Shown here piece by piece: positions 10,292 to 42,063 of a stretch of 43,299 nt of DNA. The notes under the pieces were generated by a model that saw nothing but the letters and a program-made list of their open reading frames with translations, was not told the origin of the DNA and did not search any database. The position numbers and the translations under genes are program-made. Positions within the stretch are counted from its first letter, which is position 1; each line of letters starts with the position of its first letter. Source of the DNA: Deltaproteobacteria bacterium (lineage in GTDB: Bacteria; Desulfobacterota_D; UBA1144; Nemesobacterales; CSP1-2). Location of the stretch: positions 1 through 43,299 of the forward strand of contig JACPIY010000046.1 in assembly GCA_016187835.1 (NCBI GenBank), read 5' to 3'.

Positions 10292-10330
10292 CTGTCGAAA
10301 ATTCAACAGCAACTGTTGAAAAACCAACAG
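10292..10330. promoter_or_regulatory. Paired activator palindromes between divergent sigma-54 promoters
   Basis: CTGTCGAAAATTCAACAG at 10292-10309 and CTGTTGAAAAACCAACAG at 10313-10330, centres 21 bp apart (two helical turns). Same palindrome and spacing as at 15176, 26289 and 42025. Placed about 113 bp above the leftward sigma-54 element and about 200 bp above the rightward one, the normal range for NtrC-type enhancers. Confidence 0.8.
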
Positions 10331-10509
10331 GTATTAGCAATAGGCCTTAAAAACACTCTGCTGTATATTTAAAATCCGACCTCGAATTATGACTATGTTA
10401 ATTATGATCAGTGCTAACTGGTAGTAGCTAAACAAAATTCTTCCAGATAAAGAAGCTAATGGTCGTGTGCATCCGAGGTTATTCAGTGGATCTGAATAAT
10501 CACCGCTAG

Positions 10510-10525
10510 TGGCATGACATTTGCA
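10510..10525 (+). promoter_or_regulatory. Sigma-54 promoter of the Gly/His-PEGA operon
   Basis: TGGCATGACATTTGCA, GG and GC 10 bp apart. Start predicted near 10536, giving a leader of about 25 nt that contains the GGGGGTG ribosome site before ATG 10561. Confidence 0.82.
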
Positions 10526-10560
10526 ATACTTAAATTATGAGAATAAGGGGGTGAAAAAGT

Positions 10561-10902
10561 ATGTTAAGAAAACTATCCCTAATAATCATTATGTTTATAT
10601 CTTTGGCTATGATACCTTTGCCATTATACGCCTTCGAAGAGTATGGAGGATTTGGTGGGCACGGATTCAGGGGACATAGTAGTTTTGGCAGTCATGGATT
10701 TGGACGCGGATTCGGTAGCCATAGATTTAGAGTACACAACGGATTTGGGCACCGATTTGGTGGACACGACAGTTTTGGCGGTCATGGGTTTTGGGGACAC
10801 AGTGAGTTTAGACATGGATTTAGTGGATACCATGGATTTGGCTTCAGAGAATTTCACAACGGATATTTTGGTCACGGGCATTTCGAGCACTATGATTACT
10901 AG
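10561..10902 (+). CDS. Exported Gly/His/Phe-rich repeat protein
   Basis: 113 residues. Signal peptide (LSLIIIMFISLAMIPLPLYA) then a low-complexity chain of GFGGHGF, GSHGF and GHRFGGH units, with His in roughly one of six residues and ending FGHGHFEHYDY. The periodic histidines suggest metal binding outside the cytoplasm, but no catalytic domain is present. First gene after the 10510 sigma-54 promoter. Closely resembles the N-terminal half of the 311-residue protein at 11791 but stops where that protein enters its PEGA domains; the following 200 bp have no gene, so this may be a shortened paralogue. Confidence 0.8.
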   Translation: MLRKLSLIIIMFISLAMIPLPLYAFEEYGGFGGHGFRGHSSFGSHGFGRGFGSHRFRVHNGFGHRFGGHDSFGGHGFWGHSEFRHGFSGYHGFGFREFHNGYFGHGHFEHYDY

Positions 10903-11113
10903 CACCATTACACCGACGTTTGATACAGCTTTCTTCTTCGTAGCTAACTCAGGTTTACATCAGAGATCGTTGTAGGTTTATCAACCTTAATAATTGGTTT
11001 GGGTGTAGCCCTCAGAATATAAAGGAAACCAGTTTTCATATGGACAGGGTAGAAATTAAATAGAATTTAAATTAAGAGATAGAGAGGGTTTGTTAACTTG
11101 GGATTGGGGAGAA

Positions 11114-11284
11114 ATGAAAAAGAAAATTTTAATTCTATCGGTGGCTTTTATTCTTTTCTATGGGTGTGCTAGACCCTTAACGAGGAGAGAGAGCATTCCA
11201 CCGCCACCTTCTGCACAGGCTATATGGATATATGGACACTATGATTCACAAGACAAATGGATCCCCGGGCGTTGGGTTGAGTAA
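11114..11284 (+). CDS. Small lipoprotein with a WIPGRW motif
   Basis: 56 residues from the ATG at 11114, preceded by GGGGAGAA. Lipoprotein signal with lipobox FYGC; the mature part is short: ARPLTRRESIPPPP, then AIWIYGHYDSQDKWIPGRWV. The Y-x-W-I/V-P-G-x-W pattern resembles the repeat of small exported proteins that sit beside Gly/His-rich proteins in other bacteria. Presumably anchored in a membrane. Function unknown. Confidence 0.7.
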   Translation: MKKKILILSVAFILFYGCARPLTRRESIPPPPSAQAIWIYGHYDSQDKWIPGRWVE

Positions 11285-11335
11285 ATATTAATTAGCGATT
11301 TTTGATACAAAAAATAAAAAAGAGGGAGGGATGAG

Positions 11336-11746
11336 ATGAAGGGTAAAAAATTAAACACGATAATCTTATTAGCATTGATATTTATGCTGCTAGTTCCTTT
11401 ATCTGCTCGCGGACAATTTGGCACTAGTGGTAGTGGCAGGCGTGGATCCCTGGGCCTTCCATGGGGATGGCTTATTGTATCACTTCTCGGTGGCTCATCT
11501 TATAATACCCCTAATGTGATCCCAGCAGATAAATCACACGGTATCCTGCAGATCAAGGTAGAAACCCAGGATGCGGAAATATATGTAGATAGCAGGTTTA
11601 TCGGTCGGGCAAGGGATTTTAAGGGACCGGCGATGGTTTCAGTTCCCTCAGGAAAGCATGTAGCAGAGTTCAAATATAATGGCTTGAGTTTTGCAGCCGT
11701 TAATGTTGATGTAGTTCCAAACTCTACGACATTTATTGTAAGGTGA
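11336..11746 (+). CDS. Exported single-PEGA-domain protein
   Basis: 136 residues with a signal peptide (cleavage about after SARG), a Gly/Ser-rich stretch GTSGSGRRGSLGLPWGW and one PEGA-type beta domain: ILQIKVETQDAEIYVDSRFI, GRARDFKGPAMVSVPSGKH, VAEFKYNG. The domain is nearly the same as the first PEGA domain of the next gene (EIYVDGRFIGLARDFKGPAI), so the two are recent paralogues. PEGA domains are surface or periplasmic beta modules with little known function. Confidence 0.8.
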   Translation: MKGKKLNTIILLALIFMLLVPLSARGQFGTSGSGRRGSLGLPWGWLIVSLLGGSSYNTPNVIPADKSHGILQIKVETQDAEIYVDSRFIGRARDFKGPAMVSVPSGKHVAEFKYNGLSFAAVNVDVVPNSTTFIVR

Positions 11747-11790
11747 AAATTTGAAATGAAAAAATCTTAGTCTTTAGGGGGGTAAGCGGC

Positions 11791-12726
11791 ATGAGGAAGA
11801 TAACATTAGTGATTACAATATTAGTATCTATATTGCTAATCCCTTTGCCCTTATACGCCCGTGGGGGGCATGGAGGAGGGCACGGTGGGTTCGGTGGACA
11901 TGGATTTGGAGGACACACTAGTTTTGGTCATGGAGGATTTCATAGTGGATTTGGTGGGCACGGCTTTGGTGGGTTTGGCCATGGAGGATTTCACACCGGG
12001 CATTTTGGTCATGGGCATTTCTTTGGTCACCATCACCATGGACACTTTTTCCCCAGCTTTTTCCTCGGAGTGGGATTTGGAGCTTTAGCATTATCCCCAT
12101 TCGTGATATACCCATACTATCCTTATCCTTATCCCTATTATGTTTATCCTTATGCTTCTTATCCACCCACTGCTCAGTCGTACGGCGACCTTGAAATTCA
12201 GGTAGCTCCAGAAGAAGTAGAGATATATGTGGATGGCAGGTTTATAGGCCTGGCCAGGGACTTTAAGGGACCTGCTATAGTTTCAGTTCCTTCAGGAAGC
12301 CATGTTGTGGAGTTTAGGTACGGCGGTTCAAGTTCCTCAAACACTGTTTACGTTTCTCCGGGCTCTGTGTCGGTTGTAAGCGGGGAGTTTAAGCCTGTTC
12401 CCGGATCTTCGAAGGAGTTTTTTACTCCGCCGTCTTATAGATATTTCCCGACGGTTTACCTTGAGGAGTCCGCTGGTCTTTTAAAGTTAAAAGCTGAACC
12501 CGATAGTGCTGTTATATACATTAATGGAAAATCTTTAGCAACAGCAAATCAGATTGAAAACGGGGTAATTGCTTTACCAGCAGGGTCTCATAATATTAGA
12601 ATTGCTGCAGAAGGATATAGCTCATACGAGGGAAAGGTTAATATTCCAGAGAACGATAAAACCGAGCTTAGGGTGCATCTAGAAAAGGGACCAAGAGATA
12701 AAGTTAGCTCACTATATGAACACTAG
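11791..12726 (+). CDS. Exported Gly/His-rich protein with two PEGA domains
   Basis: 311 residues. Signal peptide ending LPLYA; residues 25-88 are GGHGGFGGHGF-type repeats with a HHHHGH cluster; a hydrophobic segment FFLGVGFGALALSPFVIY follows, then a Tyr/Pro-rich spacer (YPYYPYPYPYYVYPYASYPP). The first PEGA domain is at about 132-180 and the second at about 230-300, with the PEGA-like IALPAGSHNIRIAAEGYSSY. The layout suggests a metal-chelating N-terminal arm near the membrane and an outward beta module. Last gene of the 10561-12726 operon; converges on the ATPase gene with a 27-bp gap. Confidence 0.82.
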   Translation: MRKITLVITILVSILLIPLPLYARGGHGGGHGGFGGHGFGGHTSFGHGGFHSGFGGHGFGGFGHGGFHTGHFGHGHFFGHHHHGHFFPSFFLGVGFGALALSPFVIYPYYPYPYPYYVYPYASYPPTAQSYGDLEIQVAPEEVEIYVDGRFIGLARDFKGPAIVSVPSGSHVVEFRYGGSSSSNTVYVSPGSVSVVSGEFKPVPGSSKEFFTPPSYRYFPTVYLEESAGLLKLKAEPDSAVIYINGKSLATANQIENGVIALPAGSHNIRIAAEGYSSYEGKVNIPENDKTELRVHLEKGPRDKVSSLYEH

Positions 12727-15175: not shown

Positions 15176-15214
15176 CTGTTGAAAATTCAACACACAACGT
15201 TGAAAAATCAACAT
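15176..15214. promoter_or_regulatory. Paired activator palindromes of the first RND operon
   Basis: CTGTTGAAAATTCAACAC at 15176-15193 and ACGTTGAAAAATCAACAT at 15197-15214; centres 21 bp apart. About 116 bp upstream of the sigma-54 element at 15311. Confidence 0.8.
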
Positions 15215-15310: not shown

Positions 15311-15326
15311 TGGCACAGAAGTTGCC
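15311..15326 (+). promoter_or_regulatory. Sigma-54 promoter of the first RND efflux operon
   Basis: TGGCACAGAAGTTGCC; GG and GC 10 bp apart. Start predicted near 15337, giving an untranslated leader of about 120 nt before the small gene at 15457. Confidence 0.82.
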
Positions 15327-15456
15327 AATTTAATAGTAGCTTTAGTAATGATTTTAAAAAGCCGAGGAAAACACAAATGCTTTACAAAGGTGTCTACCAG
15401 CTAGCCTTGGTACAATGCTTAGGTACCAACCAGGAATTTATATAACTGAGAAACAT

Positions 15457-15651
15457 ATGAAAATAGGAAAACAGGACTTGGAGAAAAAGTTAATTGGGAT
15501 TAGATGGAAGATTGACTTCTATGAAGCAAAGAGACAAAAACTAAGCGGAATGTCTGGACTGGAGGAACAGTGGGAAGACGCCAACAAAAGGCTTCAAGAG
15601 CTCTGGGCTGAGTTCAGGGAGATTTATTGTCGCCTTGGAAACAAGCATTAA
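15457..15651 (+). CDS. Small charged helical protein, function unknown
   Basis: 64 residues from ATG 15457 (an in-frame ATG at 15415 lacks any ribosome site). Highly charged and predicted helical: KQDLEKKLIGIRWKIDFYEA, KRQKLSGMSGLEEQWEDANK, then LQELWAEFREIYCRL. No signal peptide or known domain. It lies between the sigma-54 promoter and the efflux genes (31 bp to the next gene), so it is probably co-transcribed with them. It could be a cytosolic accessory or adaptor; nothing in the sequence decides this. Confidence 0.5.
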   Translation: MKIGKQDLEKKLIGIRWKIDFYEAKRQKLSGMSGLEEQWEDANKRLQELWAEFREIYCRLGNKH

Positions 15652-15682
15652 AAACGCACAATACCGGAGGAACAAAATTTGA

Positions 15683-17011
15683 ATGAGAAAAACACTATTC
15701 GCGTCACTTGTCATAATTGTTACAGGAGTTCTAATCGTTTTTTCCATCTCAGTCTCAAACTCAGAAGAACCGACTCAAATTTTAACCATTGATCAGGCAG
15801 TAGATATAGCACTTCGGGAGAATCGTGATCTAAGGGCGGCGCGAATACAGGTGGAAGAGGCCAGAGGGAGGTTGACACAGGCAGGGCTTTTTCCCAATCC
15901 AGCTCTGGAATCCGATTTTAGTTTCGACTCTCTCTTTGCCAATGAAGGCGAGCGAGCTTTTTCTGCGGGTATCTTTCAACCGCTCCCCTTAAGCGGTCGA
16001 ATAGGCGCCCAAAAAAGAGTAGCTCATGTGGACATTAAAAGAACCCTTTCAGGCATTTCCGACCTGGAGCGTGGATTAGTAAGAGACGTTCGTCGCGCTT
16101 TTATCGAGGTTCTAGGAATTGACGAACAGATTAAACTGCAAGATACCCTGATTAGCTTAAATAGTGAACTAATTAAAGGAATAGAAGCGGGAATTAAAGA
16201 GGGATTAGCTTCAGAGAAAGATCTTAATGCCGTAGCAATTGCACTTCAACAGGCAAGACAGGAAAAAGACGTTCTAATAGCTCAAAGGAGAAGCAAGATT
16301 TTTGAATTAAATAGGCTATTGGGCAAACCGCCAACATTTTCTTTTCTGCCACAGGGAAAGCTCGAATATGAGGCCGCAATGGATTTAGCCGAGTACAGTG
16401 TAGAAGCGGCATACGCTAAAAGACCAGATTTTAAACTTGCAGAACTTAATATTGAGCTTACAAGGGCGGATTTAGGTCTGGCTAAAGCTCTGCGTTTTGA
16501 GGATATAGTAGCAGGCATCTTCTATGAGCGCGATCGTGCAGTTTTTGATATACCACAAGAAGAAATTACTGATTTAGATAACCTTATCGGTTTTAAGCTG
16601 ACTGTTCCCCTACCTTTCTTCGACCGAAAGCAGGGTCTTATTGCTGAGACGCGCGCTCGTGAGAGGAGAGCGGAAGAAAGCGTTGAGGCTTTAAAGTTGC
16701 AGATAGGTCAGGAGGTAAATGACGCTATGACCAGGGCAAAAGTACTGTCGGCTCTCCTAGAAACTTACCGATCTGGAATCCTAAAAACAGCGGAAGACAA
16801 TGTGAAACTAGTCGAAGACGGCTTTAAGCAGGGGCTTGTAGGTATTGTGGATGTCATTCAGTCCCGTCAGCAGTTTGCCACTCTTAAATCATCCTACATC
16901 AATACCGTTCGAGATTACGGAATTGCGCTTAATGATCTTCAAATAGCTGCTGGGATATACCCAAGTACGATTATTTTTAATGAAACAAAAAAAGAGGGTG
17001 AAAACAAATGA
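15683..17011 (+). CDS. TolC-family outer-membrane efflux channel (CzcC/CusC-like)
   Basis: 442 residues with a signal peptide. Two outer-membrane-efflux repeats: the first starts LTIDQAVDIALRENRDLRAA and includes LTQAGLFPNPALE; the second contains KRPDFKLAELNIELTRADLG and KLTVPLPFFDRKQGLIAE. This is the normal CzcC-type size and motif order. Forms the trimeric outer-membrane tunnel of the RND pump encoded downstream. Stop and start codons of this gene and the adaptor gene overlap by 4 bp (ATGA). Confidence 0.92.
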   Translation: MRKTLFASLVIIVTGVLIVFSISVSNSEEPTQILTIDQAVDIALRENRDLRAARIQVEEARGRLTQAGLFPNPALESDFSFDSLFANEGERAFSAGIFQPLPLSGRIGAQKRVAHVDIKRTLSGISDLERGLVRDVRRAFIEVLGIDEQIKLQDTLISLNSELIKGIEAGIKEGLASEKDLNAVAIALQQARQEKDVLIAQRRSKIFELNRLLGKPPTFSFLPQGKLEYEAAMDLAEYSVEAAYAKRPDFKLAELNIELTRADLGLAKALRFEDIVAGIFYERDRAVFDIPQEEITDLDNLIGFKLTVPLPFFDRKQGLIAETRARERRAEESVEALKLQIGQEVNDAMTRAKVLSALLETYRSGILKTAEDNVKLVEDGFKQGLVGIVDVIQSRQQFATLKSSYINTVRDYGIALNDLQIAAGIYPSTIIFNETKKEGENK

Positions 17012-17979
17012 GAATCGGGAAAAAGAAAATTTTTGCCTCACTTTTTGCCATAATTTTTGTGTTTCTCCTAACCATAACCCTTTCACGGTTTGTCTATGGA
17101 CATGGGGAAGAAGAACAGTTAGGCGGGGAGAATGAGAATAAGGGTAGTAGTTCTATTTCTAACAGTGCCGGTGTAGAACTCTCTGACATAGCTCAAAAGA
17201 GCATAGGTCTTAAAGTTGTTGAAGCGGATATAAGGTCGATTGAAGATGTGCTGTTAATTAATGGCATAGTAAAGCCCGAACCAAATAGAGTTGCTGAGGT
17301 AAATACAAGAGCCGAAGGCCACATTCAAGAGCTTTATGTAAACCTCGGAGACCAAGTTAATAAAGGCCAAAAGCTTGCCGTAATGGTGCCCCGTCAAATT
17401 GGCAATCCCCCACCTCTCGTATCAATTACAGCGCCGCTCTCGGGCACTGTTGTGGAGAGAAATGTCTCGCTCCACAGCACGGTAGAACCCAATAAGACTC
17501 TTTTTCGGATTGCGGATTTATCGAAGGTGATAGTAGAGGGTGATGCATTTGAAAGCGACATTTCTAAAGTAGAACTCGGTCAGGATGTGCGTATCAGACT
17601 GGATGCTTATCCTGATAAGGTTTTTACCGGAAAAGTAACCTTTGTTGCGAGTGAGCTTGACCCTATGAAGCGTGCTCTTCACTTTTGGGTTTCGGTAGAT
17701 AACAAGGACGGATTACTAAAGCCTGAGCTTTTTGCTAACGTCGCTCTTATAGTTGAGCACAGCAGGGAGGTTTTAACTGTCCCTATAGAGGCGATAATTG
17801 ACGATGGCGCAGAAAAATTTGTATTCGTAAAGAACGGGAATCAGTTCGTCCGCCAGGACATTGCTACCGGAGTAAGCAACGACCGCTACGTTGAAATTAC
17901 CGATGGCCTATATCCCGGAGACCAGGTGGTCACAGACGGAAATAGGCAAATCTACACAAAGTGGCTGTTTAGTAGATAG
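17008..17979 (+). CDS. Periplasmic adaptor (HlyD/CzcB family)
   Basis: 323 residues, at the short end for the family. Signal anchor at 8-30, a His/Glu-rich linker (GHGEEEQLGGENENKG), the barrel-sandwich hybrid halves AEVNTRAEGHIQELYVNLGD and LSGTVVERNVSLHSTVEPNK, then a beta-barrel with KVFTGKVTFVASELDP and a membrane-proximal domain ending in DGLYPGDQVVTDG. The coiled-coil hairpin of CzcB is nearly absent (a few residues around GNPPPLVS), which explains the length. Links the RND pump to the channel. Confidence 0.9.
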   Translation: MRIGKKKIFASLFAIIFVFLLTITLSRFVYGHGEEEQLGGENENKGSSSISNSAGVELSDIAQKSIGLKVVEADIRSIEDVLLINGIVKPEPNRVAEVNTRAEGHIQELYVNLGDQVNKGQKLAVMVPRQIGNPPPLVSITAPLSGTVVERNVSLHSTVEPNKTLFRIADLSKVIVEGDAFESDISKVELGQDVRIRLDAYPDKVFTGKVTFVASELDPMKRALHFWVSVDNKDGLLKPELFANVALIVEHSREVLTVPIEAIIDDGAEKFVFVKNGNQFVRQDIATGVSNDRYVEITDGLYPGDQVVTDGNRQIYTKWLFSR

Positions 17980-17990
17980 GAGATTAATGG

Positions 17991-20900
17991 ATGTTTAACG
18001 CAATAATCAGATGGTCGCTAAATAATAAGTTTTTAATTGTAGTGGCTACTATTATTTTCTTTGGCGTCTCTATATACCTTGTAGGGCAGATGGCTGTAGA
18101 TGTTTTTCCAGAATTTGCGCCACCTCAGGTTGTGGTTCAAACTGAGGCGCCTGGACTTTCTCCTGAAGACGTAGAGGCACTAATCACATTTCCTATAGAG
18201 AGCGCCGTAAACGGCACACCCGGCGTTGATACAGTCCGCTCATCATCTTCCGTAGGCCTTTCAACTATAATCATAGTCTTTAAATGGGGCACCAACATCT
18301 ATACTGCACGCCAGCTCGTGAATGAGCGTATCCAGTCGGTTGCGGACCGGTTTCCTCCGGGAACAAACCCACCTGCACTACTTCCTGTTACGTCTGCTGT
18401 AGGCTGGCTCATCAAATACAGTTTATCAAGCGACAAGCTTTCACCGATGGAGCTCCGAACGATCTCGGACTGGCAAATCCGACCGAGGATTCTTGCAATC
18501 GGAGGAATAGCCTCTGTTGTCTCAATCGGAGGGGAGGTTAAGCAGTACCAGGTCCTTGTTGACCCACTGAAGCTACGCGCATTTGATGTAACCCTGGCTC
18601 AGGTAAAAGAGGCAGTAGAGAAATCAAATATAAATGTTCCGGGAGCTTTTCTATATCGTGGCGGCGCAGAATTTGCTATTACAGGCATTGGACGAATTAC
18701 CTCTCTCGATGACTTAAGAAGAACTGTAGTATCTGTTCGTGATGATGGAACCCCTATTACTCTCAGCCACTTGGCTCAAGTTAATCTCGGTCCTGAGATA
18801 AAACGGGGAGATGGGGCTTACATGAATGAATCTGCTGCTATCGGTACGATTTCAAAGGCTTATGGTGCAGATACATTGACCACAACGTACAAAGTTGAAA
18901 AAGCCCTTGAGGAGATTAAATCGAAGCTCCCAGCGGGTGTCCAGATGGATTATCGCGTCTTTAGACAGGCAGAGTTCATAGAGTCCGCTATTAAAAACTT
19001 AAAAGACGCTCTCTGGCAGGGCGCAATCATAGTTACAATAATTCTCTTTTTATTCCTTTATAACCTCCGTGCCTCCTTCATCAGTCTTCTTGCCATGCCC
19101 CTCTCTCTTCTTGCGGTACTAATGGGTTTAAAAGCCTTTGGTATCGGGATTAACACGATGACTCTGGGAGGACTTGCCATTGCCCTGGGCATTGTGGTTG
19201 ACGATGCAATTATAGATGTGGAAAACGTCTATAGGAGGCTGCGCCTTAACCGCGCCTTACGCCATCCTGAGCCCGTTCTTAACGTTGTATTTAAAGGCTC
19301 AACCGAGATCCGAAACTCTATAGTTTATGCCACATTTATTATCATCATTGCTTTTTTCCCAGTGTTTTTACTCTCAGGTCTTGAAGGGAGGATTTTTACA
19401 CCGCTTGGGATTGCATTCGTAGCCAGCGTTCTTTGCTCGTTATTTGTGGCGGTAACCACAACGCCGGTGCTTTGTTATCTGCTTCTTACACGTAAATATG
19501 AGAGAGAGCCTAGAGAACAAAGTGAGGATTTATTAATACCAGCCGCTCCGCAAGAAGCTCTTTCTCCTTCGGGAAATCCAGGCCATGAGCATGAGATAGA
19601 AAAAGAAAGTGCACTGGTGCGGTTTCTAAAAAGAATTTATGAACGCGTTCTCCATCTGACGCTAAGGCGTTTTTATCTGGTGATAGGTATTTCCGTTGTT
19701 CTGCTCATTGGTGCAATCGCAATGGTGCCATTTTTTGGCCGATCATTTCTGCCTGAATTTCGAGAGGGGAATTTTATCATAGCACTTACCACACTTCCTG
19801 GAACATCCCTACAGGAATCAATGCGTCTTGGATCAATAATTAGGAAAAATCTTACCGACAAATCCAAATATCCAGAGGTAGTTTCAGTTGCACAGCGGGC
19901 AGGACGCTCAGAGCTTGATGAGGATGCGCAGCCACCAAACTTTAGTGAATTCGACCTCACAATTGAGTATGGAGAACGCCCGGCCGATGAGCTGATTGAG
20001 TTAATACGAAACGATTTAAAGCAAATTCCCGGAGTTGCGGTAAACATAGGCCAATTTATATCACACCGATTTGACGAGGTTCTCTCAGGGATTCGAGCCC
20101 AGGTAGCAATTAAAATCTACGGTCCTGACCTAAATAAATTACGAACCCTCGGCAAACAGGTAAGAGAGATTGTAGAGACGGTAAAAGGGGTTGAGGATTT
20201 ACAACTAGAGCAGCAGATTGATGTTCCTCAGGTTGTAGTTAAATATGACCGTGAGAAAGCCGCTAGATATGGACTTAATGTAGGGGATTTAGCAGAGATC
20301 ACCGAAACCTCCCTAAATGGCACTGCGGTCTCGCAGGTGTTAGAAGGCCAGAGGACTTTTGACCTGTTTATACGTCTCAGTGAGGAGTCACGTAATAATA
20401 TTGATTCTCTTAGAAACATCCTAATCGATACTCCTACGGGGGCAAAGATCCCCCTTCGTGAGGTTGCCGATGTTAATATCGAAAATCGTCCATACACGAT
20501 AAATCGCGAGCAGGTTCAACGCCGTATAGTGGTTCAATTTAACGTTGCCGGTCGTGACCTAAACAGCGTCATTACCGAGGCTAAAGGAAAGATTGAATCT
20601 CAGGTAAAACTACCTTCTTCGGACTATTTTATTGAATACGGTGGTCAGTTTGAAAGTCAGCAGAGGGCATCAAAGGTTCTTACAATCTTCGGGATTGTGG
20701 CAATACTCGGAATTTTTATGATGCTCTTTCAGGCTTTTGGAAACGCACGTGAATCAATAATGGTAATGGTTAATCTTCCTCTTTCACTTATTGGTGGTGT
20801 TTATGCTGTTTTTCTAACAGGAGGGGAACTAAGCATACCTTCGCTAATCGGTTTTATAACCCTATTTGGAATTGCGGTAAGAAACGGAGTTATTCTCATA

Positions 20901-21197
20901 ACTCATTATAGCCAATTGCGGGAAGAAAAGGGGCTTTCTCTACGCGATACCATCATCCAAGGCTCACTCAACCGATTAAATCCCATTTTAATGACAGCCT
21001 CTGTCGCTGCGCTTGGCCTCATTCCGCTGCTGCTAGGAGAGCCTACGGGAAAGGAAATAGAGAGACCGCTTGCAATCGTGCTTCTTGGGGGTCTCTTTAC
21101 TTCAACCTTTTTGAATCTGGTTGTTATTCCAACTTTATACAACAAGATTGAATCTAGGCGTGAGAAAAGAGAGAAAACGGCGGAGGCAAAGACGTGA
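17991..21197 (+). CDS. HME-RND heavy-metal efflux pump, non-CusA type
   Basis: 1068 residues with the RND layout: TM1 at the N-terminus, a large periplasmic loop, TM2-6 from about 340, a second loop and TM7-12. TM4 near 400 reads ALGIVVDDAIIDVEN. This has a double Asp, unlike the AIGAMVDAAIVIVEN of the second pump (29456) or the DFG-x3-DGA form of CzcA. It therefore belongs to a less characterised HME branch whose metal is not established. The cytoplasmic loop near 510-545 has a GHEHEIEKE patch. Proton-driven export from periplasm or inner membrane through the 15683 channel. Confidence 0.92.
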   Translation: MFNAIIRWSLNNKFLIVVATIIFFGVSIYLVGQMAVDVFPEFAPPQVVVQTEAPGLSPEDVEALITFPIESAVNGTPGVDTVRSSSSVGLSTIIIVFKWGTNIYTARQLVNERIQSVADRFPPGTNPPALLPVTSAVGWLIKYSLSSDKLSPMELRTISDWQIRPRILAIGGIASVVSIGGEVKQYQVLVDPLKLRAFDVTLAQVKEAVEKSNINVPGAFLYRGGAEFAITGIGRITSLDDLRRTVVSVRDDGTPITLSHLAQVNLGPEIKRGDGAYMNESAAIGTISKAYGADTLTTTYKVEKALEEIKSKLPAGVQMDYRVFRQAEFIESAIKNLKDALWQGAIIVTIILFLFLYNLRASFISLLAMPLSLLAVLMGLKAFGIGINTMTLGGLAIALGIVVDDAIIDVENVYRRLRLNRALRHPEPVLNVVFKGSTEIRNSIVYATFIIIIAFFPVFLLSGLEGRIFTPLGIAFVASVLCSLFVAVTTTPVLCYLLLTRKYEREPREQSEDLLIPAAPQEALSPSGNPGHEHEIEKESALVRFLKRIYERVLHLTLRRFYLVIGISVVLLIGAIAMVPFFGRSFLPEFREGNFIIALTTLPGTSLQESMRLGSIIRKNLTDKSKYPEVVSVAQRAGRSELDEDAQPPNFSEFDLTIEYGERPADELIELIRNDLKQIPGVAVNIGQFISHRFDEVLSGIRAQVAIKIYGPDLNKLRTLGKQVREIVETVKGVEDLQLEQQIDVPQVVVKYDREKAARYGLNVGDLAEITETSLNGTAVSQVLEGQRTFDLFIRLSEESRNNIDSLRNILIDTPTGAKIPLREVADVNIENRPYTINREQVQRRIVVQFNVAGRDLNSVITEAKGKIESQVKLPSSDYFIEYGGQFESQQRASKVLTIFGIVAILGIFMMLFQAFGNARESIMVMVNLPLSLIGGVYAVFLTGGELSIPSLIGFITLFGIAVRNGVILITHYSQLREEKGLSLRDTIIQGSLNRLNPILMTASVAALGLIPLLLGEPTGKEIERPLAIVLLGGLFTSTFLNLVVIPTLYNKIESRREKREKTAEAKT

Positions 21198-21846: not shown

Positions 21847-21884
21847 ACAATAGACAAGTAAGATAACAAGTTAAATGAGTAGTA

Positions 21885-21906
21885 GGGGCGCGGCATGCCG
21901 TGCCCC
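21885..21906. repeat. GC-rich near-perfect palindrome (REP-like)
   Basis: A 22-bp block from GGGGCGCGGC to GCCGTGCCCC around a central GCATGC, with one mismatched pair. It stands out in an AT-rich intergenic region and resembles dispersed palindromes of the GTAGGGGCGCGGCATGCC type known from many genomes. A bidirectional hairpin is expected; there is no T-run, so terminator function is doubtful. Confidence 0.55.
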
Positions 21907-21986
21907 GCTAATCAAGTAGCCATTGATATTAACAAGAAGAGAATAGGAGAAAATGATGTGAGGCATGGGAAAAGGAGGGAACAGAT

Positions 21987-22505: not shown

Positions 22506-22565
22506 GGGCATAAGAGTAAACACAGAGCTATTAACTCTAACTCGCTAATACAAGAGGTTTGTGGC

Positions 22566-22616: not shown

Positions 22617-22622
22617 AAGGTG

Positions 22623-23842: not shown

Positions 23843-23927
23843 AGGGTTAGGTGACCGATCACACACTTAATTTAATGGAAAGTGAAACAGCATAAAAGAA
23901 AAAATTACAGAAAGGAGGTAATCGAAG

Positions 23928-29432: not shown

Positions 29433-29455
29433 GTGAGTAAGAAAAGGGAACGGAA

Positions 29456-32400
29456 ATGATAGGAAAAATAATTGAATATTCATCTCGGAATCTTTTCTTG
29501 GTTTTCCTGATAATATTTTTTCTCACCGTTTGGGGCATCTTTGCTCTAAAGAAGACCCCGCTTGATGCCATCCCCGACCTCTCAGATACTCAAGTTATTG
29601 TTTTTACAGATTGGCCTGGTAGAAGCCCTGATCTGGTTGAGGATCAAGTTACTTACCCTATTACTACTACACTTCTTGCAGCACCTAAGGTGACTGTTGT
29701 AAGAGGACTTTCAATGTTTGGGTTCTCTTTCATTTATATTCTCTTTGAAGATGGAACTGACATCTACTGGGCAAGAACCCGTGTACTTGAATATATGACC
29801 GGACTTAGAGGTAGACTCCCTGAGGGGGTTAACCCTATTATCGGTCCAGATGCAACTGGTGTTGGATGGGTTTTTGAATATGCTCTTGTTGATGAGACTG
29901 GAAGCTATGACCTTTCGGAAATGCGCTCATTTCAGGACTGGTACTTAAGATACTGGCTTCAAAGCGTGCCAGGGGTTGCAGAGGTTGGAAGTGTTGGAGG
30001 ATTTGTAAAGCAGTACCAGATAAACGTGGATCCCAATAAACTCCTTGCCTATAACATTCCCTTGAAAACCGTCATTGATGCAGTGAGAATGAACAATAAC
30101 GATGTTGGTGGAAGGGTTGTGGAGTGGACGGGGAGAGAATACGTAGTAAGAGGAAGGGGATATATAAGAACACTTGATGATATAAGGAATATAGTCGTAT
30201 CTGTTGACGGACAGGGAATGGGTACACCTGTTCTACTGAGAGAACTGGCAGATGTGCGACTTGGCCCTGACATCAGGCGTGGCTTTACAGAGCTTGATGG
30301 AAAAGGAGAGGTAGTTGGAGGGATTGTAGTTGCGCGCTTTCGTGAAAACGCCCTGGATGTGATAAACAGAGTGAAAGAGAAGCTTGAAGAGGTTAAGGAT
30401 GCTTTTCCTGAGGGAGTTAAACTCGTTACAACCTACGACCGCTCTGAACTCATAAATAAAGCAATAGAAAATCTTGTAGGTAAGCTTATTGAAGAAAGTA
30501 TCATAGTAAGTATAGTCTGCGTTGTGTTCCTATATCACTTTAGATCCGCACTTGTAGTTATCATTACTCTCCCCTTTGCCATACTGTTTTCTTTCATTCC
30601 TATGTACTACCTGAAGCTTACATCCAACATCATGTCATTGGGAGGGATTGCTATTGCAATAGGAGCTATGGTTGATGCCGCAATAGTTATTGTCGAGAAC
30701 GTCCATAAGAGGCTTGAGCACTGGGAGGAGGAAGGAAAAAAACGGGATAGGCTAAGCGTAATGATAGATGCCGCAACAGAGGTGGGAAAACCCGTATTTT
30801 TTGCCCTGCTTGTAATAACCGTTTCCTTTATTCCGGTTTTTACGCTTGAATACCAGGAAGGAAGGCTTTTCAAACCCCTTGCATTTACGAAGACCTTCGG
30901 TATGGCTTTTGCCTCTATTCTCTCTATAACCCTTACAGCGGCTCTGATAACGATTCTCGTCCGTGGGAAAATTACCCCTGAGAAGAAAAACCCTGTAAGC
31001 CGCTTTTTAATCTGGGCTTATGATCCGGTAGTTAGGTTCGCTTTAAGATTTAGAAAGACTATAGTGTCAATAGCCTTTATTATTCTTATTGTCACGATTC
31101 CGGTATTCCTTAAACTCGGCTCGGAGTTTATGCCTCCTCTTTATGAAGGGGTCCTTCTTGACATGCCTCTAACCACTCCCGGAATCTCGATTACGCAGGC
31201 ACAGAGTTTTCTCCAGATGCGGGATAAGATTATTAAAAGCTTTCCTGAGGTTCAAATAGCCTTTGGGAAAATGGGGAGATCCGAAACATCCACTGATCCC
31301 GCTACTCTTGCCATGGTCGAAACAAATATAGTTTTAAAACCTGAGGAGGAATGGCGTAAGGTTCCCCAGAAACGGTGGTACTCAAGCTGGGCTCCTGAGC
31401 CACTAAAAAAAATCCTTCGACCCATCTGGCCTGAAGAGCGGACCCTGACCCCAGAGGAGCTTATAAGCGAACTAGACCAGGCTCTTCGTTTTCCTGGTGC
31501 TACAAACGCATGGACTATGCCCATAAAAGCAAGGGTGGATATGTTAACTACTGGGATTCGAACTCCAATCGGAATAAAAGTCTTCGGAGCCGACCTTTCT
31601 AAAATCGAGGAGATAGGGTTAGAGATCGAAGGTGCGCTTCAGGATATCCCCGGGACAAGGAACGTCTATGCAGAAAGGGTAACGGGTGGATATTACATAG
31701 ATTTCTGGATCCGTCGTGAGGAAGCCGCTCGCTACGGGCTTTCAGTAAGCGATGTAGAGGATGTGATTCAAGCAGCGATAGGAGGAGAGAGTATAACAAC
31801 AACAATAGAGGGACGAGAGAGGTATCCGGTAAATGTGAGATATTCAAGGGAACTGCGTGATGAAATGAGAAAACTCGAAAGGGTTCTTGTTCCTACCCCG
31901 GTTGGAGCACAGGTTCCGATAGAGCAGCTTGCTGATATCCGCATAGTAATGGGACCGCCTGAGATAAGAACTGAAGAAGCAACCAAGGTCGGATATGTAT
32001 ACGTTGACATAACTGGTAGAGATATAGGAAGCTACGTGGAAGAAGCAAAAAAGGTTGTCGCAGAACGTGTAAAACTCCCCCCCAAGTATTATCTGACCTG
32101 GAGCGGACAGTATGAATACATGTTGAGAGTTAAGGAGCGCTTGAAGCTAGTCGTTCCTATTACACTTCTTATAATCTTTGTTCTTCTTTACCTCAATTTC
32201 AGAAATATCACAGAAACGATAATAATTCTTCTTTCAGTTCCTTTTGCCGCTGTTGGGGGAATATGGCTTATGTATCTTCTGGGTTATAACATGAGCGTTG
32301 CTACATGGGTTGGGTTTATTGCCCTTTCTGGACTTGCCGCTCAGACAGGCGTGGTAATGATAATTTACCTGGATGAGTTTTACGAGAAAATGATTAGAGA

Positions 32401-32680
32401 AGGGAAAAAGGATTCAAAGAGTCTGGCCAAGGCTATACACGATGGAGCTGTGCAGAGAGTTAGACCTAAAATGATGACTGTTATGGCACTGATAATGGGA
32501 CTTCTTCCGCTTATGTGGAGCCAGGGGGCAGGAGCCGATATGATGAAGAGAATCGCAGCCCCCATGGTAGGAGGCCTTGTGACATCAACTATCCTCACAC
32601 TTATTATAATCCCGGCAATATATGAAATCTGGAGAGGCAGGGGGTTGCAACAAAACGAAGGGAATGAAAAAAATTTGTAA
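29456..32680 (+). CDS. cusA: CusA-type Cu(I)/Ag(I) RND efflux pump
   Basis: 1074 residues, 12 TM RND architecture. TM4 near 403 reads AIGAMVDAAIVIVENVHKRL, matching the monovalent-cation (CusA) class of HME-RND pumps. Other family blocks: KTPLDAIPDLSDTQVIVFTD, SVGGFVKQYQINVDPNKLLA, GSEFMPPLYEGVLLDMP, FAAVGGIWLMYLLGYNMSVA. Exports copper or silver ions from the periplasm using the proton gradient with the adaptor and channel upstream. Gene gap 23 bp. Confidence 0.94.
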   Translation: MIGKIIEYSSRNLFLVFLIIFFLTVWGIFALKKTPLDAIPDLSDTQVIVFTDWPGRSPDLVEDQVTYPITTTLLAAPKVTVVRGLSMFGFSFIYILFEDGTDIYWARTRVLEYMTGLRGRLPEGVNPIIGPDATGVGWVFEYALVDETGSYDLSEMRSFQDWYLRYWLQSVPGVAEVGSVGGFVKQYQINVDPNKLLAYNIPLKTVIDAVRMNNNDVGGRVVEWTGREYVVRGRGYIRTLDDIRNIVVSVDGQGMGTPVLLRELADVRLGPDIRRGFTELDGKGEVVGGIVVARFRENALDVINRVKEKLEEVKDAFPEGVKLVTTYDRSELINKAIENLVGKLIEESIIVSIVCVVFLYHFRSALVVIITLPFAILFSFIPMYYLKLTSNIMSLGGIAIAIGAMVDAAIVIVENVHKRLEHWEEEGKKRDRLSVMIDAATEVGKPVFFALLVITVSFIPVFTLEYQEGRLFKPLAFTKTFGMAFASILSITLTAALITILVRGKITPEKKNPVSRFLIWAYDPVVRFALRFRKTIVSIAFIILIVTIPVFLKLGSEFMPPLYEGVLLDMPLTTPGISITQAQSFLQMRDKIIKSFPEVQIAFGKMGRSETSTDPATLAMVETNIVLKPEEEWRKVPQKRWYSSWAPEPLKKILRPIWPEERTLTPEELISELDQALRFPGATNAWTMPIKARVDMLTTGIRTPIGIKVFGADLSKIEEIGLEIEGALQDIPGTRNVYAERVTGGYYIDFWIRREEAARYGLSVSDVEDVIQAAIGGESITTTIEGRERYPVNVRYSRELRDEMRKLERVLVPTPVGAQVPIEQLADIRIVMGPPEIRTEEATKVGYVYVDITGRDIGSYVEEAKKVVAERVKLPPKYYLTWSGQYEYMLRVKERLKLVVPITLLIIFVLLYLNFRNITETIIILLSVPFAAVGGIWLMYLLGYNMSVATWVGFIALSGLAAQTGVVMIIYLDEFYEKMIREGKKDSKSLAKAIHDGAVQRVRPKMMTVMALIMGLLPLMWSQGAGADMMKRIAAPMVGGLVTSTILTLIIIPAIYEIWRGRGLQQNEGNEKNL

Positions 32681-38307: not shown

Positions 38308-38754
38308 TTACCTTACGAGTATTTGACGTTTTGTCATACCCGAATGTATTAAACGGGTATCCATAAATTCTTGGATTCCTCCTAAAAGCATGCGGTAATG
38401 ACAACCTTCTGATGGCACTTTAAACTCTTTTCCATTGAAAATTGTATAAATACTGGTTTCTGAAGTGCTAAAGTTATCTTTGTATCTTTTTTCCCCCTCT
38501 TCCCTATAAACTTTCTCAAGCTTAAAGCGAGCCTCAATGTCATTAGGATTAATTCTTAGAATTTCTTTGTATTCATCTATAGCTTGGTTATATTCCCCCT
38601 TGGCATAGTAAACATTTCCAAGGTTATAGTAGGCATCAACATAATTAGGATTGATTTTTAGAGCTTCTTTAAATTCATCTATCACTTGGTTGTATTGACC
38701 TTCGGCATAGTAATCGATACCACGGTCAAAGTGCGCTTTGGCTTCTTGAGTCAT
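38308..38754 (-). CDS. TPR-repeat protein
   Basis: 148 residues. Two or three tetratricopeptide repeats in residues 4-90: AKAHFDRGIDYYAEGQYNQV, ALKINPNYVDAYYNLGNVYY, ILRINPNDIEARFKLEKVYR. The C-terminal 55 residues (GKEFKVPSEGCHYRMLLGGI) are not TPR and have no recognised family. No signal peptide. AAGGAGGGAGATATG start context; 10 bp after the cytochrome gene, so it is the last gene of the bc operon. Confidence 0.8.
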   Translation of the reverse strand: MTQEAKAHFDRGIDYYAEGQYNQVIDEFKEALKINPNYVDAYYNLGNVYYAKGEYNQAIDEYKEILRINPNDIEARFKLEKVYREEGEKRYKDNFSTSETSIYTIFNGKEFKVPSEGCHYRMLLGGIQEFMDTRLIHSGMTKRQILVR

Positions 38755-38764
38755 ATCTCCCTCC

Positions 38765-39418
38765 TTACCTTTCGGGAATTTCTCGGCTCTTAGACCGAAT
38801 GTAGGTTATAAGGTCAACCAGCTCATTTCCTTTAAATTCTGGCCACTCAACTCCCATCTCCTTCATCCTTTCTTCCATTTCCGCTGCGTGTCCCCACATG
38901 ACTTCAGCCCACAAAATTGGTGAAACAAGCCCCCTCCATTTACTAAGGTCTCCTCCGATCTTATGAGCCTCTGTTCCAACAGAATGACAGTTCTCACATC
39001 CCTTTGTAGAAAAAAGCTTTTCTCCCTTTTTTACATCACCTGGTTCATCTAAATAATGTAGTGAGTATATATATGCGAATAAATCTCTCATCTCCGAGCC
39101 TTCAAAGGGCTTCCAGATAAAAGCGCTTTTTACCGCTAATTCTCTCATCGCTGGGGCATGGTTCCACATAACACCTGCAAGTTGAGTCACTGTCAGATGG
39201 TATGAAGGGGACTTTCCTAAGTCTGAACCTACCTTACCGCCTACACCCCTTATAGCGTGACACTTTATACACCCTTTTTGAGCAAACACCTGACGCCCTT
39301 TTTGAGGGTCTCCCCAAAGGGCATATGTATTATCTTCAGAGAGGAGTGGTTCTGTTGAAAGAATTACTCCGATAAAGACGGCTACCAAAATCGTTAAAGT
39401 AAGCACATAACTTTTCAT
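38765..39418 (-). CDS. Periplasmic di-heme cytochrome c
   Basis: 217 residues. Signal peptide 1-22. Two similar cytochrome c domains: CIKCHAIRGVGGKVGSDLGK (heme at 50-54) and CENCHSVGTEAHKIGGDLSK (141-145). Each is followed by a conserved MWNHAPAM / MWGHAAEM block whose Met probably ligates heme. The tandem duplication is visible in the protein. Gene lies 22 bp after the cytochrome b-c gene; it likely accepts electrons from the bc complex. Confidence 0.9.
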   Translation of the reverse strand: MKSYVLTLTILVAVFIGVILSTEPLLSEDNTYALWGDPQKGRQVFAQKGCIKCHAIRGVGGKVGSDLGKSPSYHLTVTQLAGVMWNHAPAMRELAVKSAFIWKPFEGSEMRDLFAYIYSLHYLDEPGDVKKGEKLFSTKGCENCHSVGTEAHKIGGDLSKWRGLVSPILWAEVMWGHAAEMEERMKEMGVEWPEFKGNELVDLITYIRSKSREIPER

Positions 39419-39440
39419 TTTCTTTCCCTCCCCATTTTGG

Positions 39441-40835
39441 TTACTTCAAAGTCTCAAGATATCTCAATAGTGAATCCAGTTCCCCTTCCGAGAGTTCTTT
39501 ATAGGCAGGCATGGGTGAACCGGGTTTTATCGCTTCAGGGTCTCGAACAAACTTCTTTAACCATTCAATATCCCTCCGTGCCCCGATATTTGTTAGGTCT
39601 GGACCGGCATCACCTCCAATCTTATTTATCATGTGGCATGCTGAACAGCCCTGCTCTTCGTATACCTTTCTTCCTTGCACTACCTCAGGTGGTAAAGTTC
39701 TCTCTTCACGGGTAGTGATAGTAGGAGCTACGCCAGCAGGCTTTGGTGCTGTAAATCCCTTGTAAGTGAGGAAGGCAATTCCCGCTATTCCTAGCGTTGC
39801 CAGCATTGAAGCTATTGGTCTTTTTATTGGGCTTCTCCCAGGAGTTCGGTCAAAGAATGGAAGGAAGAGTAAAATTAGAATAATAGCCGCAGGAATGTAA
39901 AACGTGGCGATGGGAATAGATCGACCTGGAAAATACCAGAGAAGCTTGAACAAAAAGTAGAAATACCACTCGGGTCTTGGTACATAGCCGGTAGAAGTTG
40001 GATCAGCAGGCTCATCTACTGGAGCGCCTAGGCGAAGCGACATGAAAACAAGAATTAAGAAGAGTATAAATATCACGACCGAATCACGAAAAAGGTGATC
40101 AAAGAAAGTTTCCCCTTTTTCTTTAGATTCCTCATAAAGCTTTTTATAATCCTCCCTCCTTATAACTGCCAGTTTCTCTATTGGTGCAGGGGCAATTCCC
40201 TGTTTTATCACCATAAAGAGGTGGATTCCTATCAAAGTGTAAAGAACGGCAGGCAGTATGAGCACGTGTGAAGCATAGAAGCGTCCTATCGTACGGGCTC
40301 CTACATCTATCCCTCCTATAAGGACTCTTCGAACATAAGAACCTATAAGAGGAGAATACTCTGCAACATGCGTCCCAACAACCGTAGCCCAGTAACCCTT
40401 TTGATCCCATGGAAGAAGATAGCCCGTGAACCCAAAGGCCATAATGATTATTAAAAGTAGGACTCCTACAACCCAAGAAGCCTCTCTTGGATACTTATAA
40501 GCTCCCATAAAGAAAACTCTGAGAAGATGAAGGAACGCCATAACTATAACAAGACTCGCTCCCCAGTGGTGTAATCCCCGAATAAAGGCACCAAAAGGAA
40601 TCTGATCTATATACTTTATACTGTGATAAGCGTGTTCAGGTGATGCCACGTAATAAAAAGCAAGAAAAAATCCAGTAGCTGTTTGTACAAGAATGAGAAA
40701 CAAAGTAGCGCTTCCAAAGGTTTGCCACCAGCCAGTTCCCTGGGGAAGCCTCCTATCAAGAAACCTCGAGAGGATAAGTCTAATTTCTAATCGTTCTTGA
40801 AACCAGTCTCCGATCTTGCTCATGAGTGACGCCAT
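39441..40835 (-). CDS. Cytochrome b fused to a C-terminal cytochrome c domain
   Basis: 464 residues. Cytochrome b6-like part with heme-ligand His pairs in RGLHHWGASLVIVMAFLHLL and SHVLILPAVLYTLIGIHLF; Qo-site region includes PRPEWYFYFLFKLLWYFPG (PEWY motif) in the subunit IV-like part. From about 385 a cytochrome c domain follows: CSACH at 397-401, GPDLTNIG, and Met in GSPMPAY. Such b-c fusions occur in several anaerobic and chemolithotrophic lineages. Membrane quinol:cytochrome c oxidoreductase core. Start ATG overlaps the end of the restored Rieske frame. Confidence 0.93.
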   Translation of the reverse strand: MASLMSKIGDWFQERLEIRLILSRFLDRRLPQGTGWWQTFGSATLFLILVQTATGFFLAFYYVASPEHAYHSIKYIDQIPFGAFIRGLHHWGASLVIVMAFLHLLRVFFMGAYKYPREASWVVGVLLLIIIMAFGFTGYLLPWDQKGYWATVVGTHVAEYSPLIGSYVRRVLIGGIDVGARTIGRFYASHVLILPAVLYTLIGIHLFMVIKQGIAPAPIEKLAVIRREDYKKLYEESKEKGETFFDHLFRDSVVIFILFLILVFMSLRLGAPVDEPADPTSTGYVPRPEWYFYFLFKLLWYFPGRSIPIATFYIPAAIILILLFLPFFDRTPGRSPIKRPIASMLATLGIAGIAFLTYKGFTAPKPAGVAPTITTREERTLPPEVVQGRKVYEEQGCSACHMINKIGGDAGPDLTNIGARRDIEWLKKFVRDPEAIKPGSPMPAYKELSEGELDSLLRYLETLK

Positions 40836-41352
40836 CCTGAAAACTCAAGTTTTTCATTTACTTCGTAAATACGACCGGCGTAGAGAATTCCGTTCTCTAT
40901 TTTGTACTCATGGCGATCCAAAGGCGCGGTGGCGGGCCGGCAAGAACCTTTCCATCCCGGTCAAAAACTCCGCCATGGCAGGGACTAAAAAAACGTTGAG
41001 CTGGAGGGTTCCATTGTATTGGGCAGCCAACATGTGTGCAGTGGGTGTGAAAAATATCAAACTTTCCTCCCCCTCTATTAGAGACAAAAACGGCAACTTT
41101 TGGAACTTCTTCAGGCCAGAGCTTTTTAAGCACAGGTCTAGCTACAACGAGTTTTGTCTCTCCCTCTTTAAAATCACTTATAGGACCTACCGCAAGCCAT
41201 GTGACCTCTTCTTTTTTTAAGGCAGGAATAATATAGAAACCAAAAAGAGGAACTCCTATGGCAGCGGTAATGCCCGCAGAGATTGCTCCTAAGGCGAATT
41301 TTACAAATCCCCTACGGGTTGGTTTAGACTGAGTATTATCTGCGTCTTTCAT
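40820..41352 (-). pseudogene. Rieske iron-sulfur protein with a one-base deletion near the end
   Basis: 151 residues as read, ending LAGPPPRLWIAMSTK. N-terminal TM/twin-Arg-like segment TRRGFVKFALGAISAGITAA, then cluster motifs CTHVGCPIQW and CHGGVFD. Adding one base after GPPPR restores PLDRHEYKIENGILYAGRIY and a stop at 40820, the normal Rieske ending, overlapping the cytochrome b start. Cluster ligands are intact even without the tail. The operon is otherwise intact, so an assembly or base-call error is likely; a real truncation is not excluded. Confidence 0.8.
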
Positions 41353-41447
41353 CTTACAAACCCCCTTTCTCTATTTATACTTCGTTAAATTTCAGTAAAT
41401 AAACCTCACATACCCACAGTTAAAGAATCTAAATCTATTATCTAGAT

Positions 41448-41873
41448 TCATCTAAAAGGTCCCCCTTTACCTTCCTTTTTGGTAGTGGTATGACCTTTGC
41501 TTGACTCCCGAACCCTTTCTGAGAGGCCAGGGAGCTTAGATTCGAGGTTGTTTAGGGTTGATAAAATCTTATCCACATCGTTTTTAGTAGAGATACGAAG
41601 ATTCTTTAGAATCCTCTCTGCAAATTCACAGTAGTGTTTTTTGAAATCGGCAAACCCTTCGAACCCTTTTTCTGCTCCCCAGATAAAGAAAGGGCTCCTC
41701 ATCCACATGTCAAAGGTGTCCGACGTGAACTTCTCCCAAACATTATAAACCTGCTTAAAGTAGTCGACTTCACCCTTCCTTTCCCAAGACGCGGAAAGAA
41801 TGCTCATCCACATATCAATTGATTTGGATAGAAATTCTCCCCCAAAGTCCATAAAAATTCTTGAAATATTCAT
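41448..41873 (-). CDS. PhaE/phasin-like protein
   Basis: 141 residues. Helical, Trp/Phe-rich: KSIDMWMSILSASWERKGEV, YFKQVYNVWEKFTSDTFDMW, FFIWGAEKGFEGFADFKKHY. The C-terminal NLRISTKNDVDKILSTLNNL followed by ESKLPGLSERV resembles the end of the PHA synthase subunit PhaE and phasins, in which a rtkkDVD sequence starts a coiled coil. No synthase gene is in view. First gene after the 41958 sigma-54 promoter; 95 bp from the Rieske gene. Confidence 0.55.
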   Translation of the reverse strand: MNISRIFMDFGGEFLSKSIDMWMSILSASWERKGEVDYFKQVYNVWEKFTSDTFDMWMRSPFFIWGAEKGFEGFADFKKHYCEFAERILKNLRISTKNDVDKILSTLNNLESKLPGLSERVRESSKGHTTTKKEGKGGPFR

Positions 41874-41957
41874 ATTCTTTTCCTTTCTTTTCTTCCCCTC
41901 TCATTGTCCAGCCCTTCTTTCTTTTCTTTTGTTAAAGAGACCCTTTATAATTAGGTC

Positions 41958-41973
41958 GGCAATTACTGTGCCA
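41958..41973 (-). promoter_or_regulatory. Sigma-54 promoter of the PhaE-bc operon
   Basis: Minus-strand TGGCACAGTAATTGCC; GG and GC 10 bp apart. Start predicted near 41947, 73 nt before ATG 41873. Shares TGGCACAGTAATTGC exactly with the promoter at 10182-10197. Confidence 0.85.
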
Positions 41974-42024
41974 ATTATTTAATTTGTATTTTCAATACAT
42001 TTCATAGATAACGAACTTGAAATA

Positions 42025-42063
42025 TTGTTGAAAAACCAACACCCACCGTTGAAAATTCAACAG
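42025..42063. promoter_or_regulatory. Paired activator palindromes of the PhaE-bc operon
   Basis: TTGTTGAAAAACCAACAC at 42025-42042 and CCGTTGAAAATTCAACAG at 42046-42063; centres 21 bp apart, about 70 bp upstream of the sigma-54 element. The half GTTGAAAAACCAAC is identical to that at 10315-10328. Confidence 0.8.

Follow-up and report, generated by a model that had tools for sequence, protein, structure and literature searches.

NtrC-type activators work from a distance, with phosphorylated dimers binding the DNA, an AAA+ ring assembling, the DNA looping to the sigma-54 polymerase, and ATP being used to open the promoter. NtrBC and AtoSC are systems of this kind, dependent on sigma-54 and on an upstream enhancer. 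The ZraS kinase has a periplasmic sensor domain, and the CusSR and CzcSR regulators are OmpR-type proteins that are independent of sigma-54. In E. coli, ZraR is reported to target zraP, zraSR and mgtA directly, with a role in envelope stress proposed over one in zinc resistance (PMC7657598). Here we describe paired palindromic boxes in a stretch of 43,299 nucleotides, referred to as the window, which is contig JACPIY010000046.1 of a Deltaproteobacteria bacterium (assembly GCA_016187835.1). The pairs very probably serve as upstream activating sites for an NtrC-type response regulator, the product of the gene at 7240-8634, which would switch metal-efflux, metal-binding and respiratory genes via sigma-54.

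Each pair consists of two copies of the palindrome GTTG-N6-CAAC whose starts lie 21 bp apart (4/4 pairs), and all of them are intergenic. The four pairs and their constant spacing are present exactly as given in the initial annotation (Table 1). Its statement that every box carries the same palindrome held in part, as the exact 14-mer is found in only three of the eight boxes (one of them on the - strand) and four others differ by one or two changes. When mismatches are counted over the eight conserved letters of each box, 21 bp is the sole spacing within the 15-60 range in the window at up to one mismatch per pair (three pairs), while up to two mismatches give four pairs at 21 bp and one each at 15, 36, 41 and 44 bp. 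Dinucleotide shuffles (n = 300) yielded a mean of 0.003 pairs at 21 bp, with a maximum of one. At three mismatches, 12 window pairs at other spacings stand against four at 21 bp, and nine genomes all contained many matches, above the reversed-pattern control among the matches listed; this criterion is too loose for use. It is scarcely credible that the pairs arose by chance, or as duplicated repeats spread by insertion sequence elements at the contig ends. Transposase genes at both ends and TGGCACAGTAATTGC, common to the promoters at 10197(-) and 41973(-), would suit such a spread, but the shuffle statistics and the conservation of the pairs with the regulator in other genomes, presented below, speak against it. 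The transposase-like genes, recognised by eye from the translations, are located at 42-1412 (-) and 42571-43299 (+), and the contig probably ends in repeats. Degenerate boxes near 25017 were seen by eye only and were not counted as a pair.

Sigma-54 promoters were defined strictly as TGGYAY-N5-TTGC, a pattern matched by all five promoters of the box-associated units; the window contains eight such sites versus 0.23 expected. The -24/-12 elements with 10 bp between GG and GC were borne out at all five positions proposed earlier, one for each of the five transcription units said to be served, namely the two-component system, the His-rich proteins, two resistance-nodulation-division (RND) pumps and the cytochrome bc operon. 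The distances of 70-200 bp claimed at that time need correction: from the pair edge to TGG we measured 97, 182, 99, 97 and 54 bp. In addition, several pairs sit between divergent promoters, a feature absent from the initial annotation. The remaining strict sites of the window have no recognisable pair; two of them, 7066-7080 (-) and 25137-25151 (+), are intergenic and precede genes, and the third, 41486-41500 (+), lies inside a gene.

Table 1. Coordinates of the paired boxes, sigma-54 promoters and associated genes in the window
Feature	Position	Strand	Remarks
Enhancer pair 1	10292..10330	none	boxes 10294 and 10315; between divergent regulator and His-rich operons
Enhancer pair 2	15176..15214	none	boxes 15178 and 15199; upstream of RND pump 1
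Enhancer pair 3	26289..26327	none	box 26291 perfect on - strand, box 26312 degenerate; upstream of RND pump 2
Enhancer pair 4	42025..42063	none	boxes 42027 and 42048; upstream of bc-complex operon
Sigma-54 promoter TGGCACAGTAATTGCA	10182..10197	-	DUF302-kinase-regulator operon; 97 bp from pair 1
Sigma-54 promoter TGGCATGACATTTGCA	10510..10525	+	His-rich genes; 182 bp from pair 1
Sigma-54 promoter TGGCACAGAAGTTGCC	15311..15326	+	pump 1; 99 bp from pair 2
Sigma-54 promoter TGGTACACATATTGCT	26422..26437	+	pump 2; 97 bp from pair 3
Sigma-54 promoter TGGCACAGTAATTGCC	41958..41973	-	bc operon; 54 bp from pair 4
NtrC-type response regulator, proposed activator	7240..8634	-	REC PF00072, AAA+ PF00158, Fis-type helix-turn-helix PF02954, all above Pfam cut-off
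Membrane histidine kinase, proposed partner	8631..9695	-	PF00512, PF02518; DUF4118 weak, below cut-off; conserved in L070 and G029
DUF302 protein, first gene of regulator operon	9753..10160	-	PF03625
His/Gly-rich exported proteins	10561..12726	+	10561-10902, 11336-11746, 11791-12726 (PEGA domain); from translations; putative single operon
Pump 1 operon	15415..21197	+	small open reading frame, outer-membrane protein, adaptor, CusA/CzcA-family RND
Genes behind pump 1	21352..25635	+	include cytochrome c 21987-22505 and ZraP/CnrX-like helical protein 23928-24524; putative cotranscription
Pump 2 operon	26529..32680	+	outer-membrane protein, CusB-like adaptor, CusA-type RND with three metal-site methionines
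bc-type operon	38308..41873	-	41448-41873 (no assignment), Rieske 40897-41352, cytochrome b 39441-40835, cytochrome c 38765-39418, TPR protein

In the host genome (2.86 Mb), the pairs form a small closed set. A search with a sequence model built from nine pairs recovered five, the four of the window and one on contig C96, all at E <= 2.4e-7, and the next match has E = 0.54 (150 of the 727 first-look candidates were scored). Since these five pairs were among the training sequences of the model, their own E-values are flattering, and it is their separation from the remaining matches that carries the result. Genome-wide, the 14-mer with up to one mismatch is confined to this contig, to C96:1344 and to a lone box on C80 without a surrounding pair. 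The C96 pair was found by the two-box pattern and, like its two strict promoters, is absent from the initial annotation; the promoters lie on opposite sides of it, at 99 bp (before a gene for a 157-amino-acid protein with a signal-like start) and at 208 bp (before one for a HAMP-domain protein). All five pairs therefore have a strict promoter, with seven promoters in total, and scattered boxes lacking sigma-54 elements, for which a scan had been suggested, are not the pattern of this genome. Seven of the 10 flanks of the five pairs hold a strict site within 300 bp, compared with an expectation of about 0.006 per flank calculated from the 108 strict sites genome-wide. These 108 sites, compared with seven for the reversed pattern, indicate that sigma-54 is heavily used and that most sites must belong to other regulons; RpoN has one match in the genome, on C32. 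Contig C96 (stretch L056) also encodes two short membrane HAMP proteins, at 439-1059 (-) and 4263-4874 (+), one of them behind a box-pair sigma-54 promoter. Both show, by eye, a stretch resembling a phosphoacceptor helix and no ATPase domain, and it is possible that they are feedback partners of the kinase.

The boxes and the regulator also occur together in other genomes. In a search of 100 genomes, the host included and with up to about 16 regulator candidates scored per genome, pairs with no mismatch were found in three, the host, G029 and G021. A regulator of at least 69% identity was present in the same three genomes only (69-70% for the orthologs in G029 and G021), the next best being 52% among the candidates scored, and the two genomes with 52% proteins contain no pair. 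Bare pairs with one mismatch, found in seven of the 97 other genomes, were taken as chance. In G029, the pair is flanked by the kinase-regulator operon and by an operon for a cytochrome and a porin-like protein, each side having a strict promoter, and a second, weaker pair from a looser local scan is again accompanied by two strict promoters. The order in G021 is the same; here the contig ends within the kinase gene, and the regulator is encoded on a separate contig. When 84,980 species genomes were scanned for the boxes alone, 58 stretches were obtained. A strict sigma-54 site directed outward within 300 bp was present in three of them, and these three were also the ones with a clear kinase ortholog (57-72%) next to the pair; two of these stretches include the regulator gene, which in the remaining genome is on a different contig. 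G029 and G021 account for two of the three, and the other, L070 (SMXG01000044.1), is a previously unknown case in which the regulator is 78% and the kinase 72% identical, and the pump operon opposite, with a promoter at 99 bp, is 67-76% identical to pump 1 of the window.

Searches in other directions returned weaker matches. Within 57 genomes of the phylum, the model gave matches at E <= 0.1 in 23, including the three true ones, and the others (E 0.0018-0.1) were taken as chance. A candidate at G006:C121:18896 (model E 1.9e-4) has one good box, and the only site scoring at least 8 within 3 kb is about 1.3 kb away, hence it was not counted. Bare pairs were also found in 19 stretches of viral contigs; none of these has a strict sigma-54 site within 300 bp, and two have a looser one, at 187 and 253 bp. 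Among plasmids, 28 records hold relatives of the regulator (E <= 1e-100), all below 60% identity and at best 48.9% among the matches listed, and the intergenic region of pair 1 has no plasmid match at E <= 0.01. By eye, about a dozen stretches, mostly from marine gammaproteobacteria with Alteromonas-like genomes (L061, L064, L069, L073, L085, L086, L091, L099 and others), carry a different palindromic box paired at 21 bp, with an AT-rich linker such as TAAATTA, and have no strict sigma-54 site; these are presumably sites of another regulator.

Taken over nine pairs in four genomes, a strict promoter is found within 300 bp in 14 of the 18 flanks, at distances of 54, 86, 87, 97, 97, 97, 99, 99, 99, 99, 100, 141, 182 and 208 bp, eight of which fall at 97-100 bp. 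This bears on the possibility that a repressor or a sigma-70 activator uses the pairs as operators, with sigma-54 promoters nearby by accident. Such a reading could appeal to the 55 of 58 stretches in which bare GTTG-N6-CAAC pairs at 21 bp have no strict sigma-54 site, to pair 4, only 54 bp from its promoter, and to the pair of L070, 49 bp from the kinase start. It is nevertheless very improbable, because the frequency of strict sites in the flanks and the cluster at 97-100 bp, which is usual for enhancers but not for operators, argue against it. Helical phasing of the 14 distances was considered and rejected, as the Rayleigh test at 10.5 bp (p ~0.003) is driven by the 97-100 bp cluster and the six distance classes give p ~0.2. 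An IHF-like site between pair and promoter was matched once in the 14 regions and is unsupported.

The operon nearest to pair 1 encodes, in order, a DUF302 protein, the kinase and the response regulator. The sigma-54 contact loop of the regulator reads GAFTGA in the window, GAFTDA in L070 and GSFTDA in G029 and G021, the variation affecting a residue that is usually fixed. In the DNA-binding domain, the segment NISRNSLIY is identical in the four orthologous regulators and occurs in none of the 27 other NtrC-type regulators compared. The earlier proposal of a single sigma-54 activator, most likely this neighbour of the boxes, is thus supported by the co-occurrence of pairs and orthologs, from which we infer that it binds them. 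Alternatively, an activator encoded elsewhere could bind the boxes, the neighbouring two-component system being merely a target. The host genome does encode many NtrC-type proteins (at least 16 scored matches), but the boxes track the 7240-8634 regulator across genomes, and its DNA-binding helix is kept with the box while the rest of the protein diverges to 69-78% identity, which makes another activator unlikely.

The genes served point to metals and to respiration. The RND protein of pump 2 (29456-32680) has E. coli CusA as its closest solved relative (1131.6 bits), and three methionines align with those of the CusA metal site, which we take to be M573, M623 and M672. For that of pump 1 (17991-21197), the closest solved relative is ZneA (540.2 bits vs. 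489.7 for CusA); it reads FIIALTTLPG where pump 2 has LLDMPLTTPG, as placed by eye, and on this placement does not share the CusA metal-site methionines. In the bc operon, PF00355 scores above its cut-off and the NCBIfam matches below their curated cut-offs, the cytochrome b has a C-terminal heme motif and the cytochrome c has two. A second Rieske gene is found on C17, followed, by eye, by a cytochrome b gene, so that the bc complex of the window is probably additional. A homolog of the 23928-24524 protein (39% identity) lies in G029 behind the box-headed porin-like and cytochrome genes.

Such a gene set also allows the same regulator and sites to serve a signal other than metal, namely the redox state of the membrane or quinones, or envelope damage, with the pumps as one arm of a response to respiratory damage. 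The kinase, with its short membrane N-terminus and no recognised sensor domain, the second bc-type complex, the cytochromes and the DUF302 protein within the regulon, and the porin-like protein and cytochrome opposite the kinase in G029 and G021 would all be compatible with it. The largest targets, on the other hand, are two heavy-metal RND pumps and the His-rich proteins, and the gene set includes a ZraP/CnrX-like fold, which leaves a non-metal signal as a possible but less favoured explanation.

Two further observations concern the neighbourhood of these genes. A heavy-metal P-type ATPase gene (12754-14697), in the region 12754-14972 (-), lies behind a gene for a CsoR/FrmR-family repressor (PF02583) and has no pair; it is probably a separately controlled metal-response unit. 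A family of small exported proteins with a PEDHxKxAxYYE motif and conserved His and Cys is represented by four copies near box-controlled genes (24563-24952 and 25234-25635 in the window, 5190-5552 in L056 and 8512-8889 in L051), with no Pfam match above cut-off and a weak NCBIfam likeness, below cut-off, to the LIC_10421 family.

Several points weigh against the proposal that the regulator acts through these pairs in response to metal. Box 26312 (GTTTGAAAATCATC) is degenerate, departing from the 14-mer by four changes. Independent genomes are few: G029 and G021 belong to one genus, so that these two and the host do not amount to three independent cases, and L070 could owe the module to misbinning or to horizontal transfer. 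The regulator was found at E <= 1e-145 in none of the 100 nearest genomes searched, and composition is compatible with both origins (G+C content of 41.7% in the contig, 42-47% in seven stretches sampled from the rest of the assembly). Moreover, no strict promoter faces the kinase gene in L070, so self-activation is not uniform. In the other 55 stretches of the box-only scan, neither kinase nor regulator lies beside the pair within the 3.9-8.0 kb covered per stretch, and a looser sigma-54-like site (score of at least 9 of 12) is found within 300 bp in eight, once at 103 bp. The protein at 23928-24524 has a confidently predicted helical core, and the PDB folds closest to it, those of ZraP and of the metal sensor CnrX, match weakly (E = 0.2). 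Finally, nothing in the kinase points to metal. It has no periplasmic sensor Pfam domain, its HisKA domain begins at residue 140, it contains one strong hydrophobic stretch, and its predicted structure (mean predicted local distance difference test score of 61.7), with a low-confidence all-helical N-terminus, is too poor for a fold search.

According to the mechanism we favour, the membrane kinase would phosphorylate the regulator upon a signal, two regulator dimers would occupy the two palindromes, and the AAA+ ring would then assemble. As 21 bp corresponds to two helical turns, both dimers would be placed on one face of the DNA, and two palindromes at this interval fit the dimer-of-dimers arrangement. 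The DNA would loop, allowing the GAFTGA loop to contact sigma-54 polymerase at the -24/-12 element, most often 97-100 bp away, and one pair could often drive two divergent promoters. With the promoter of its own operon among the divergent targets, the system would activate itself. The regulon turned on from five pairs and seven promoters would comprise two pumps, one of the Cu(I)/Ag(I) type and the other ZneA-like, together with the His-rich exported proteins, the cytochromes and the second bc-type complex, and by analogy with ZraSR the likeliest trigger is envelope metal stress. The enhancer code is legible from the sequence as a box, a fixed pair spacing of 21 bp and a promoter preferably placed about 98 bp away; it goes with a single DNA-binding helix and lets the targets of one sigma-54 activator be listed from the genome alone. 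Furthermore, Cus-type efflux and a second bc-type complex would be placed under one sigma-54 two-component system, and this joint control suggests that bypass of damaged electron transport is part of the toxic-metal response in this lineage.

In regulators of Desulfovibrio vulgaris mapped by DNA affinity purification on chips, sites were mostly palindromic (PMC3333781), and in the sigma-54 regulome of the same species activators were linked to targets by comparative genomics (PMC4641369). The main texts of both papers contain neither GTTG or CAAC nor the term heavy metal, a search of terms that does not extend to figure logos, and in the searchable text of a large sigma-54 survey heavy metals come up a single time, in connection with ZraR (PMC12316311). 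In agreement with the initial annotation, no regulon with this box was found in the open full-text literature, in which motif logos in figures are not text-searchable; the box thus appears to be undescribed.

Among described systems, the enterobacterial ZraSR-ZraP resembles the present one in its kinase and NtrC-type sigma-54 regulator and probably in having its own operon, and perhaps a metal-linked periplasmic protein, among the targets. It differs in that the regulator described here reaches 391.6 of the 760 bits set for ZraR and the kinase 213.9 of the 479 set for ZraS, both well short of these curated cut-offs, the kinase has no recognised periplasmic sensor, two RND pumps and a bc-type operon are among the targets, and the box is apparently the system's own. 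NtrBC and AtoSC share the REC-AAA+-helix-turn-helix architecture, AtoC being the best NCBIfam match (494.5 bits), yet this score is below the AtoC (714) and NtrC (558.6) cut-offs and the targets are different; at glnA, NtrC sites are spaced by about 32 bp, compared with 21 bp here. CusSR and CzcSR likewise exert two-component control over CusCBA-type pumps, whereas the output domains here are AAA+ and a Fis-type helix-turn-helix (HTH_8), with no OmpR winged helix. The overall scheme is a familiar one among bacteria, and what appears to be new is a paired enhancer code of its own and a wider target set, respiratory as well as metal efflux, in a sigma-54 two-component stress regulon. More tentatively, it might represent a new class of such regulons, with a paired enhancer code of their own, in which a kinase that senses within the membrane induces metal efflux together with the buffering of metal in the periplasm and a respiratory complex that acts as a replacement; kinase, regulator, enhancer and pump would then travel as one module between distantly related bacteria.

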